Source: Acidobacteriota bacterium
GTDB lineage: Bacteria > Acidobacteriota > Thermoanaerobaculia > UBA5066
Direction of reading: 5' to 3'
Assembly: GCA_029781975.1 (NCBI GenBank)
Contig: JAKOVQ010000003.1
Coordinates: 252,034 to 316,033 of the forward strand
Length of the DNA: 64,000 nt
This document shows positions 936 to 4,851 of the stretch, piece after piece. The position numbers and the translations under genes are program-made. The number at the start of each line of letters is the position of its first letter. Positions within the stretch are counted from its first letter, which is position 1. The notes under the pieces are model-generated. The model was not told the DNA's origin and did no database searches. It saw only the letters and a list, made by a program, of their open reading frames with translations.

Positions 936-1475
936 TCAGGCAGCTCCCCCCGGGGGCGGAGGGCCGGATCGCCGCGGGCGGGGCTCGCGCGGCGCGCGGG
1001 CCCTGGCCTGCTCGGCCCCCGGGCGCTCCACGATCCGGCCGGGGACGGGGGACGAGAGGACGATCGAGGTGGCGGTCGTCCCGAACGGCGTCAGCCGGTC
1101 GATGACCGCCTCCAGATGCTCGACGGAGGCGACGGCGACCTTCATCGTGAAGGAGTCGCCGCCCGTCCCCCGGTGGCACTCGAGGACCTCGGGCATCGCT
1201 CGGACGGTCGCCGTAATCCGGGCGAGGACGTCGCCGACGGCGCCCATCCGGATGACGGCGAGGATCGGGTAGCCCACCTTCGCCAGGTCGACCTCGGCGC
1301 GGTAGCCCGAGATCACGCCGGCGGCCTCGAGGTTCCGGACCCGCTCCGCCACGGCGGGCTTGGAGAGCCCCACCCGGCGGCCGAGCTCGGCGAAGGAGAG
1401 CCGGGCGTCGAGCTGGAGCTCGCGGAGGATCCTCCAGCCCGTCCCGTCGAGGAGCTTCGAAGGTAGTAACGTCAT
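936..1475 (-). CDS. Lrp/AsnC-family transcriptional regulator
   Basis: 179 residues. An N-terminal winged helix-turn-helix ([36 protein letters not shown]) is followed by an RAM/AsnC ligand-binding ferredoxin-like domain ([32 protein letters not shown]). The last 30 or so residues are an Arg/Pro-rich tail. I chose the ATG at 1475 over an upstream TTG at 1505 because a CATAAT hexamer lies just 6 nt before it, fitting a leaderless transcript. The gene is divergent from the phenol-lyase fusion at 1586, and an inverted repeat lies between them. Control of that gene in response to an amino acid is therefore likely, but inferred. Confidence 0.88.
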
Positions 1476-1481
1476 TGTCTG

Positions 1482-1487
1482 ATTATG
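1482..1487 (-). promoter_or_regulatory. Candidate -10 box of the Lrp-family gene
   Basis: CATAAT on the minus strand lies 6 nt before the ATG at 1475, with no Shine-Dalgarno sequence between. No convincing -35 box is seen. Confidence 0.4.
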
Positions 1488-1494
1488 CCTGTCG

Positions 1495-1527
1495 ATCGTA
1501 AGCAAATTCCGTTGTTTTCCTTACGAT
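1495..1527. promoter_or_regulatory. Inverted repeat, candidate operator between divergent genes
   Basis: ATCGTAAG (1495-1502) and CTTACGAT (1520-1527) form a perfect 8-bp inverted repeat with a 17-bp AT-rich spacer. Centre-to-centre spacing is about 25 bp. The site is in one of the few AT-rich stretches of the window, directly between an Lrp-family gene and the phenol-lyase fusion. Lrp-type regulators bind such palindromes, so this is a plausible autoregulatory and target operator. Confidence 0.55.
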
Positions 1528-1585: not shown

Positions 1586-4255
1586 GTGCCGGCCACCCCC
1601 CCCATCCACGAGCCCCACAAGATCAAGACCGTCCGCCCCATCGCCTTCCCGACGCTGGAGGAGCGCAAGCGAAACCTCCAGAAGGCGCACTTCAACGTCT
1701 TCAACCTGACGCCGACGCAGGTCACGTTCGACATGTGCTCGTTCGGGACCGGCGCCATGAGCCAGGAGCAGATCGCCGGCCAGCTCGTCGGGGACGAGGC
1801 GTACGCCGGGGCGCGCAACTTCGAGACCCTCTGCGAGGTGGTGACGCGGGTCCTGGGGCACACGTACGTCTGCCCGACCCACAACAGCCTCGGGGCCGTG
1901 AAGCTGATCGTCGCGACGCTGACGCCGAAGGGCTCGCTCGTCCCGAGCAACGCGCGCGGGCGGGTCGACCTCCACGAGCCGCGGGGGATCGAGATCGCCG
2001 ACGTGCGCGACCGGACGGAAGAGGTCTTCACCGGGAACGTCGACCTCGCGAAGCTCCAGGCGCTCGTCTCGGGGCGGAAGGCCGCGATGATCGGCCTGCA
2101 GGCCTTCGCCGACGGCCAGCATCCCTTCAGCCTCGAGAACCTCCGGGGCGTGAGGGCCCTGGCGGACCGGCACGGTCTCCGGCTCCTCCTCGACGTCTCC
2201 CGCGTCGTCGAGAACGCCTGGTACGTCCAGCGGCACGAGGCGGGGCACGCCGACCGGACGATCGCCGAGCTCGTGAAGCTGATCGCCAAGACGGCGCACG
2301 TGGTCCTCCTCGACGGTGCCCAGGACGCCAAGTGCAACACCGGCGGCCTCCTCGCCACCGACAACCCGGCCGACCACGAGAGGTTCATGAACGAGGTGGT
2401 CGTCTACGAGGGGCTCCACACCTACGGCGGGATGGCCGGGCGGACGATGGAGGTCCTGGCCCGCGGCCTGGCCGAGATGACCGACGAGGCCGAGGTCCAG
2501 TGGGTGATGCACCAGACCGAGCGCTTCACCGCGCGCCTCGGGGACGCCGGCGTCCCGCTGGAGCGGGGCTGCGACGGCGCCTACCTGAAGGCCGACGCCT
2601 TCCTCCCGCACGTTTCGACCTACCCCGAGCACGCCCTCGCGGCCGCCCTCTACCAGACGAGCGGCGTGAGGGCCTTCGTCCCGGGCCACGCGGGGCGCGA
2701 CCACCTCCTCCCCGTCCAGATCCCGCGCCTGGCGATGACGAGCTGGCAGCTCGACCAGGTGGCGGACGCCGTCATCGCCCTCTTCGCGCAGCGAGAGAGG
2801 ATCGCCCCGCTCGACGTCGAGGTCGACGGCGCCTGGAACGACCAGCTCCGGTTCCGCTCCGTCTTCGCCGACCTCGCGACGTACGAGTTCGACTGCTACC
2901 CCTTCGTCGTCCACACGGTCGAGCCGATCGCCCGGACGACCCGCGGGCAGCGCGAGAAGGCGATCCGCGAGGCGGGATGGAACACCTTCCTCCTCCGGTC
3001 GGCCGACGTGACGATCGACCTCCTGACCGATTCCGGGACGACCGCCATGTCGACCGACCAGTGGGCGGCCTACGACGGCGCGCGCGCCACCGCGGCGACG
3101 AGCGAGGCCTACCACGCCTTCGTCGACTCGATGAAGGAGATCTACGGCTACGAGCACATTCTCCCGACCCACCAGGGCCGGGCCGCCGAGCAGATCCAGA
3201 GCGAGGTGATGATCCGCCCGGGCCAGCTCGTGCCGGGGAACATGTACTTCACGACGACGAAGGCCCACCAGGAGATGGCGGGCGGGATCTTCGTCGACGT
3301 CATCGTCGACGAGGCGCACGACCCGGCGAGCACCTTCCCCTGGAAGGGGAACGTCGACCTCGGCAAGCTCGACGCGATCGTGAAGGAGCACGGCGCCAAT
3401 CAGGTCGCCTACATCTCCTTCGAGTTCTCGGTGAACATGGCCGGCGGCCAGCCCGTGAGCATGGACAACGTCCGCGACGTCTACGCCTACTGCCGGCCGA
3501 AGGGGATCCCGGTCCTCTTCGACGCGACGCGCGCCGTCGAGAACGCCTACTTCATCAAGAAGCGCGACCCGCGCTACCGGGCGACCCCCATCCGCGACAT
3601 CGTCCGGGAGATGATGGCCCACGGCGACGGCTGCACCGTCTCGGGCAAGAAGGACTTCCTGATCAACATCGGCGGGCTCCTCGCGTTCAAGGACAACGCC
3701 GAGTGGGCGCGGAAAGCCGAGGAGAAGCTCCGGATCTACGAGGGGGGCGTCCGCGACGGCGGCCTCCCCGCGGCCGATCTCGCCGCGATGGCCCAGGGCG
3801 TGAAGGAGATGCTCGACGACCGCTACATCCGGACGCGGGTGGAGCAGGCCGCCTGGCTCGCCGACCGCCTGACGGCGGCCGGCGTCCCGGTCGTCGCGCC
3901 CACCGGGAGCCACGCGGTCTTCATCGACGTCAAGCGCTTCCTCCCGCACGTCGACCAGGACGAGTACCCCGCCCAGCGCCTGGCGGCGGAGATCTACGTC
4001 GAGACGGGGGTCCGCGTGATGGAGCGCGGCAACGTCTCCAAGGGGCGCGACCACGAGGGGAGGAACTACCGTCCGGCCCTCGAGCTCGTCCGCCTCACCA
4101 TCCCGCGCCGCGTCTACTCGAACGAGCACATGCGCGCCGTCGCCGACGGCATCGCGCGGCTCTACCAGCGGCGGCACGAGATCAAGGGCTTGAAGTTCGT
4201 CTACGAGCCGCCGGCGCTCCGCTTCTTCCAGGGGAGGTTCGAGCCGATCGGCTGA
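1586..4255 (+). CDS. Tandem-fused tyrosine phenol-lyase / tryptophanase family protein (pseudo-dimer)
   Basis: 889 residues, about twice the usual 455-470 of tyrosine phenol-lyase (TPL) and tryptophanase. These are PLP enzymes that split Tyr (or Trp) into phenol (indole), pyruvate and ammonia. Residues about 1-435 and 445-889 are each a full-length copy of the fold. The C-half resembles TPL rather than tryptophanase: NMYFTTT, MERG with Arg814 (TPL Arg381), LRFF near the end, SGKKD with Schiff-base Lys689, THQGR with Gln530/Arg532. The N-half has Gln246 in place of that Lys and lost QGR (NSL, 100-102), but keeps GDEAY (Tyr73) and YGG (Tyr280). The C-half has lost both of those tyrosines (Ala503, Asp724). 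The GTG start at 1586 follows AGAGGAGG. The 3' end overlaps the convergent cyclophilin gene by 55 bp. No frameshift or stop interrupts either half. Confidence 0.9.
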   Translation: MPATPPIHEPHKIKTVRPIAFPTLEERKRNLQKAHFNVFNLTPTQVTFDMCSFGTGAMSQEQIAGQLVGDEAYAGARNFETLCEVVTRVLGHTYVCPTHNSLGAVKLIVATLTPKGSLVPSNARGRVDLHEPRGIEIADVRDRTEEVFTGNVDLAKLQALVSGRKAAMIGLQAFADGQHPFSLENLRGVRALADRHGLRLLLDVSRVVENAWYVQRHEAGHADRTIAELVKLIAKTAHVVLLDGAQDAKCNTGGLLATDNPADHERFMNEVVVYEGLHTYGGMAGRTMEVLARGLAEMTDEAEVQWVMHQTERFTARLGDAGVPLERGCDGAYLKADAFLPHVSTYPEHALAAALYQTSGVRAFVPGHAGRDHLLPVQIPRLAMTSWQLDQVADAVIALFAQRERIAPLDVEVDGAWNDQLRFRSVFADLATYEFDCYPFVVHTVEPIARTTRGQREKAIREAGWNTFLLRSADVTIDLLTDSGTTAMSTDQWAAYDGARATAATSEAYHAFVDSMKEIYGYEHILPTHQGRAAEQIQSEVMIRPGQLVPGNMYFTTTKAHQEMAGGIFVDVIVDEAHDPASTFPWKGNVDLGKLDAIVKEHGANQVAYISFEFSVNMAGGQPVSMDNVRDVYAYCRPKGIPVLFDATRAVENAYFIKKRDPRYRATPIRDIVREMMAHGDGCTVSGKKDFLINIGGLLAFKDNAEWARKAEEKLRIYEGGVRDGGLPAADLAAMAQGVKEMLDDRYIRTRVEQAAWLADRLTAAGVPVVAPTGSHAVFIDVKRFLPHVDQDEYPAQRLAAEIYVETGVRVMERGNVSKGRDHEGRNYRPALELVRLTIPRRVYSNEHMRAVADGIARLYQRRHEIKGLKFVYEPPALRFFQGRFEPIG

Positions 4256-4851
4256 GGCGCGAGGACGCTCGCGCGGAGGATCTCGACCGGCGGCTCGAGC
4301 GCCTGTCCCTTGGCGGGAGAGCGCCAGATCCGCCGGACGACGTCCATCCCCCGGACCACGCGACCGAAGGCGGCGAAGCCCTGGCCGTCCGGGTTGCGGG
4401 CGCCTCCGAAGTCGAGGGAGGGCTGGGGGCCGACGCAGATGAAGAAGTCGCTCGTCGCGGAGTCGGGGCTGTCGCGCGCCATCGAGACCGCGCCGTCGAC
4501 GTGGGAGAGGCCGGTGTCGCGGGTCCGCTCGAGGGGGATCGGCGGACGGTCGAGCTTCTCCCGGGCGGGAGGGACCCCGGCCTGGATCACGTCGATCTTC
4601 ACCTTCTTGTCGGGCTGGTTCTCCGGCGTCACCGTCCGGTGGAACAGTCCGCCGTCGTAGGCGCCGTCCTCCACGTAGCGAAGGAAGTTGCGCGCCGTCA
4701 CCGGCGCGTGCGCGACGTCGACGAGGATCTCGATCTCGCCTGCGGCGGTCTCGAGGAGCACGCGTGCGGCCGCGGGAGCCGGCCCCGGTGCGGCTTTGGC
4801 GGCGGTGGACGAGCGGAGGGCGAGGAGGAGGAGGAAGGCGATCGTCTGCAC
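4201..4851 (-). CDS. Secreted cyclophilin-type peptidyl-prolyl cis-trans isomerase
   Basis: 216 residues starting at GTG 4851, preceded by GGGGAGAG. A short hydrophobic N-terminus (IAFLLLLALRSSTAAKAA) looks like a signal peptide, so the protein probably acts in the periplasm. The cyclophilin domain follows from about residue 28: VLLETAAGEIEILVDVAHAPVTARNFLRY, GGLFHRTV, DGAVSMAR, DFFICVGPQPSLDF, GFAAFGRVVRGMDVVRRI. The FHR motif with catalytic Arg is present. The sequence between FHR and the AVSMAR strand is expanded with charged residues, as in Deltaproteobacteria- and Acidobacteria-type members. Its last 18 codons overlap the convergent phenol-lyase gene. Confidence 0.88.
   Translation of the reverse strand: MQTIAFLLLLALRSSTAAKAAPGPAPAAARVLLETAAGEIEILVDVAHAPVTARNFLRYVEDGAYDGGLFHRTVTPENQPDKKVKIDVIQAGVPPAREKLDRPPIPLERTRDTGLSHVDGAVSMARDSPDSATSDFFICVGPQPSLDFGGARNPDGQGFAAFGRVVRGMDVVRRIWRSPAKGQALEPPVEILRASVLAPQPIGSNLPWKKRSAGGS

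Follow-up and report, generated by a model that had tools for sequence, protein, structure and literature searches.

Tyrosine phenol-lyase (TPL; EC 4.1.99.2; TIGR02618; PDB 1TPL and 1C7G) is known as a homotetramer of ~456-residue chains in which every site is alike and holds the full residue set, with Glu69 of the neighbouring subunit completing the potassium site. The same superfamily includes tryptophanase (TnaA), also homomeric, whose Tyr74 and Tyr307 (E. coli numbering) we take to be the counterparts of TPL Tyr71 and Tyr291. In the catalytic dimer of E. coli tryptophanase, the neighbouring subunit contributes Tyr74 and Tyr307, which bond to the pyridoxal phosphate (PLP) phosphate group, and the Y74F variant has negligible activity (PMC2770544). 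In TPL, Tyr71 protonates the phenol as it leaves, while Arg381 and Thr124 bind the substrate hydroxyl (PMC9262865), and the effect of replacing Tyr71 differs by substrate (PMC3870968). Tandem fold-type I halves that make one active site within one chain occur in the glycine decarboxylase P-protein (GLDC/GcvP; split form GcvPA/GcvPB), whose dead N-half has Gln where the PLP lysine would be (PMC7259800).

A double-length gene of the tyrosine phenol-lyase family

The window, by which we mean the whole 64,000-nucleotide stretch of Acidobacteriota DNA analyzed here, contains an open reading frame at 1586-4255 on the forward strand that begins with GTG and encodes an 889-residue protein. Pfam identifies two Beta_elim_lyase stretches in the product and no other domain, and the NCBIfam TPL model TIGR02618, with an equivalog cut-off of 720.7 bits, scores the whole chain at 884 bits as the sum of two stretches. 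The C-half alone (aa 435-889; 2888..4252, forward strand) scores 623 bits and the N-half alone (aa 1-432; 1586..2881, forward strand) scores 266 bits. In phmmer comparisons with TPL sequences from the Protein Data Bank, the best stretch of the whole chain covers aa 435-886 (E 1.4e-157) and the N-half alone matches with E 4e-60; identity of the C-half to 1C7G is ~52%. The N-half modelled alone with AlphaFold (pLDDT 88, pTM 0.86) matches TPL end to end (Z 47, rmsd 2.0 Å over 423 residues), and the C-half part of the whole-chain model matches TPL with Z 48.7. The chain thus holds two complete TPL folds, each half matching the family separately, as the preliminary description of this gene had proposed. 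Downstream lies a convergent gene for a cyclophilin-type peptidyl-prolyl isomerase (4201-4851, reverse strand), and the 3′ ends of the two genes overlap by 55 bases (4201-4255).

Active-site residues are divided between the halves

Residues were read off an alignment of both halves with the 1C7G sequence, and every residue that the preliminary description had named was confirmed. The C-half has Lys689 (3650..3652; TPL Lys257), the predicted Schiff-base lysine, together with Q530-G531-R532 (3173..3181; TPL 98-100) predicted to bind the PLP phosphate, Asn617, the tyrosine-specificity residue Arg814 (4025..4027; TPL Arg381), Arg836 and the LRFF motif, and carries Ala503 (3092..3094) at the Tyr71 position and Asp724 (3755..3757) at the Tyr291 position. 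In the N-half, Gln246 (2321..2323) stands in for Lys257 at what is predicted to be a dead site, N100-S101-L102 replaces QGR, Asn185 is gone and Pro376 occupies the position of Arg404. The same half retains Tyr73 (TPL Tyr71), within the GDEAYAG loop at aa 69-75 (1790..1810), and Tyr280 (2423..2425; TPL Tyr291), all of these features lying on the forward strand. A third residue, overlooked in the preliminary description, has the same fate as Tyr71: Glu71 of the GDEAYAG loop (TPL Glu69) is retained in the N-half and mostly replaced in the C-half.

A scan of GTDB genomes yielded 35 loci, comprising 31 fused genes and four single-domain genes (L031, L032, L033 and L035) at 53-56% identity, and searches of relatives, of the bacterium's own phylum and of a second phylum added further loci, among them the three deep fused branches. 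Both halves are readable in 42 fused chains, counting one pair of identical sequence (L019 and L063); most are 62-85% identical, with deep branches at 48-52% (L069, 52%; L070, 51%; L072, 48%). Their hosts are Acidobacteriota, Planctomycetota, Myxococcota, Gemmatimonadota, Pseudomonadota (Thermomonas, Dokdonella) and one Bacteroidota bin, from soil, groundwater and reactor habitats. At locus L070 (34-4164) the open frame runs to 1377 codons, and its first ~480 residues resemble non-coding read-through before a likely start at MQAEPYKIKEV.

The full complementary pattern is present in 42 of 42 fused chains, the three deep branches included. In TPL numbering, every C-half has Lys257 (44/44), Q98-G99-R100 (44/44), Glu103, Phe123, Thr124, Asn185, Asp214, Arg217, Ser254, Lys256 and Asn262, and Met379, Arg381 (43/43), Arg404 and Phe448 occur in every C-half whose contig extends that far. 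No C-half has Tyr71, the 44 sequences carrying P (26), A (11), S (3), I (3) or C (1), or Tyr291, which is replaced by D (41), N (2) or S (1); position 69 is A, P or S in 41 of 44, and the three acidic cases (one E, two D) all belong to the deepest branches. Glu69, Tyr71, Leu288 and Tyr291 are present in every N-half, the GDEAYAG motif being intact throughout (G67, D68, E69, Y71 and G73 in 43/43; Tyr291 in 43/43). N-half losses are as uniform, with Lys257 changed to Gln (42) or His (1), Ser254 always Asp, Arg404 never Arg, Arg100 retained as Arg in a single chain and N-x-L at the QGR position in most sequences. A residue table shows both sets together in TPL and in all 19 single-domain relatives compared.

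Homologues that retain or lose these residues at random, the outcome named beforehand as contrary to a shared site, were looked for among these chains, and 42 of 42 were complementary, which argues against randomness and indicates neither chance nor local decay. The same conservation bears on whether the gene is a functionless product of decay or of faulty assembly. One relative fits that account, in that N- and C-half matches fall in separate reading frames at a contig start (L029, 1-2489, the same gene in L071), through either sequencing error or a real break; with the frame open in ~40 assemblies, an invariant pattern and both halves strongly conserved, we regard this account as so improbable that it can be neglected. 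Mean pairwise identity is 65% for the N-half and 74% for the C-half (correlation 0.85), and the N-half is, judged by these sequences, under constraint.

How far the complementarity extends was examined in a blind comparison of 126 positions invariant among 14 single-domain enzymes, of which 100 are retained in the C-half and 56 in the N-half. Among the positions lost from the C-half are the run 65-77 and Tyr291/Gly296; most of the 65-77 run is intact in the N-half. Over all 126 positions the complementarity does not reach significance (positions lost from both halves, 5 versus 8.3 expected; Fisher p 0.13), and our claim therefore concerns the active-site residues. There, the C-halves have lost three of three trans and none of 23 cis residues in the 1C7G alignment, a split expected once in 2600 if losses were random among them, with cis and trans labels that were not blind and came from the literature and general knowledge. 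The proposal that residues were lost only where they had become redundant accordingly holds at the active site but is not significant across the invariant positions as a whole.

A predicted composite active site within one chain

We conclude that the fused protein is very probably a covalent pseudo-heterodimeric TPL with one composite active site and one vacated site per chain, a reading supported by the complementarity in all 42 chains and by the trans tyrosines published for tryptophanase (PMC2770544), the family member for which trans action of the two residues is stated. One polypeptide would form what is usually the catalytic dimer of TPL. The C-half would carry PLP on Lys689 and supply the cis side of a single TPL active site, all checked cis residues being present. 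The N-half, with its own PLP site and Schiff-base lysine lost, would lend the missing trans residues across the catalytic interface: Tyr73 to protonate the departing phenol, Tyr280 to contact the PLP phosphate and Glu71 at the cation site, with the GDEAYAG loop predicted to reach the C-half PLP. The three-dimensional placement of these residues, their N-half/C-half pairing, the identity of the substrate and the inactivity of the second site are predicted from sequence. The chemistry is most likely that of ordinary TPL, converting L-tyrosine to phenol, pyruvate and ammonia; counted in favor is the retention of Thr124, Met379, Arg381 and Phe448 in every C-half reaching them. Counted against the pseudo-heterodimer reading as a whole are the score of the C-half alone below the TIGR02618 cut-off, the p of 0.13 for whole-position complementarity and low-pLDDT active-site loops.

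The whole chain was modelled with AlphaFold2 and the family alignment (pLDDT 82, pTM 0.80), and this pTM, well above expectation for one free half, suggests that the two halves have a definite position relative to each other. Confidence in the model is lowest at the active-site loops, where pLDDT is <50 for residues 72-74 and in parts of 448-486 and 815-825. A placement of the helix before GDEAYAG against the C-half was considered and dropped as too thin, its basis being two tryptophanase rows of the whole-chain comparison that aligned from model residue 66 or 68.

In a rival scheme, catalytic pairs would form between C-halves, which would process other beta-substituted amino acids, such as cysteine S-conjugates, without the two tyrosines, with the N-half as a mere scaffold. 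The substrate-dependent effect of Tyr71 replacement in TPL (PMC3870968) makes tyrosine-less beta-elimination of good leaving groups possible. Such pairing, however, leaves unexplained why GDEAYAG and Tyr291 are invariant in 43 of 43 otherwise fast-diverged N-halves and why the C-half holds invariant tyrosine-specific Arg381, Thr124 and Met379, and we judge it very improbable.

A different question concerns the vacated site of the pseudo-heterodimer, where many N-half positions within or near the former PLP pocket have become fixed as other residues (S254D, K256A, K257Q, Q98N, R100L, P339E, H343D and R404P). The N-half still has Asp214 and, except in the deepest branches, Arg217. In the C-half, the position that should lie opposite this pocket is fixed as Asp724 in 41 of 44 sequences. 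These features would suit a site that became a regulatory pocket, binding an amino acid or other ligand and tuning the working site, but the fixed residues may merely fill the hole left by PLP, and Arg217, Pro404 and Asp724 are not retained in all of the deepest branches; we therefore consider a regulatory role unlikely. The specific proposal that a conserved pocket facing Asp724 detects an amino acid and thereby gates the sole catalytic site appears distinctly unlikely; if true, a symmetric dimer would have given rise to an enzyme and its sensor within one chain. Besides Asp724, fixed or nearly fixed C-half replacements are K11 to His443, R127 to Lys559 and E229 to Asp661 (2912-2914, 3260-3262 and 3566-3568), which possibly face the vacated site.

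Relation to known enzymes and origin of the fusion

Both halves share the fold and length of TPL; the C-half has all cis residues (among them Lys257 and the phosphate and carboxylate ligands R100, N185 and R404) and, wherever reached, the specificity residues Arg381, Thr124, Met379 and Phe448, and N-halves have Tyr71, Tyr291 and Glu69, with partner-subunit geometry assigned by homology. Unlike known TPL, the fusion has 889 residues in two unlike halves, one without Lys257, R100, N185 and R404. Since it thus departs from a homomeric enzyme with identical sites, we class it as a TPL-derived pseudo-heterodimer and not as an ordinary TPL. Tryptophanase shares the superfamily and the trans-tyrosine arrangement (PMC2770544), but is homomeric and has tryptophan-specific Asp, Val, Ile and His at TPL positions 124, 379, 381 and 448, which the C-half lacks. 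The glycine decarboxylase P-protein offers the same architecture of tandem fold-type I halves with one active site, but belongs to another family with another reaction, and the fused lyase has Beta_elim_lyase and no GDC-P domain in Pfam; the likeness is one of analogy, not kinship. In serine palmitoyltransferase, the fold-type I pair LCB1/LCB2, a lysine-less partner completes the site of the other, but the two are separate subunits of a different family. A search of the open-access literature, which leaves out most subscription journals, found no paper describing a TPL or tryptophanase of fused or double-length form. The preliminary description knew of no described enzyme of this kind; for tyrosine and tryptophan lyases this agrees with that literature, but the architecture has its precedent in the P-protein.

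The fused family is a naturally occurring test case for active sites built by two subunits: after joining, the PLP side was lost in one copy and the partner side in the other, and this division of labor has held across several phyla. The outcome repeats that of the glycine decarboxylase P-protein in another fold-type I family, down to Gln for Lys. A TPL with two independently changeable sides of its site would suit engineering for tyrosine and L-DOPA synthesis, and the deep branches L069, L070 and L072 could reveal the order of losses.

In trees of the halves and single-domain enzymes, all N-halves group in a single clade and all C-halves in a second (SH-aLRT 100 for either clade). Both clades branch in the same order at their base, with L070 and L072 separating first and L069 next, and together these results indicate a single fusion whose halves have since been passed on together. 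After a very long stem, the N clade evolves only moderately faster than the C clade, and the history of the N-half is, as far as these branches tell, one of release from one constraint and then a new one. Of the earlier proposal of duplication and fusion, the fusion is borne out, as a single event, by the matching clades; the pairing of the halves as sisters is not recovered in the tree, where branches are long. The halves may stem from duplication in place or from the joining of two different TPL genes, and we keep both as candidate origins.

Genome context

An Lrp/AsnC-type regulator gene (936..1505, reverse strand; Pfam HTH_AsnC-type 9.2e-16, AsnC_trans_reg 1.8e-13) is divergent from the lyase gene, ~80 bp away, and such a neighbor occurs at nine loci from Acidobacteriota and Pseudomonadota. 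This is fitting for an amino-acid catabolic gene transmitted together with its regulator, which may control the enzyme in part of the fused family. In the neighborhood comparison the Lrp/AsnC gene alone recurs widely, with no pathway neighbors.

The host genome has one fused copy and, elsewhere, one ordinary single-domain relative (L002) that is tryptophanase-like, with D, V, I and H at TPL positions 124, 379, 381 and 448, where the C-half has T, M, R and F. All 12 whole genomes checked pair the fused gene with one single-domain relative at 39-45% identity. Mutual exclusion of fused and single-domain TPL was considered and rejected: the two never co-occur (12 fused and 22 single among 396 genomes), but ~0.7 joint cases are expected by chance. 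At locus L023 (3258-4517), an endonuclease/exonuclease/phosphatase domain is joined to sigma-70 region 4 in one open reading frame, and since a relative in L025 has no sigma part, this is probably a contig-end chimera. In two proteobacterial bins, the single-domain TPL gene (L031, 1485-2663; L035, 1377-2537) is directly followed by an FAD-binding monooxygenase-like gene (Pfam FAD_binding_3), whose product could have phenol as its substrate or serve in making ubiquinone. The genome that contains the window also carries two aromatic ammonia-lyase genes of the HAL/PAL family (L059 and L060).
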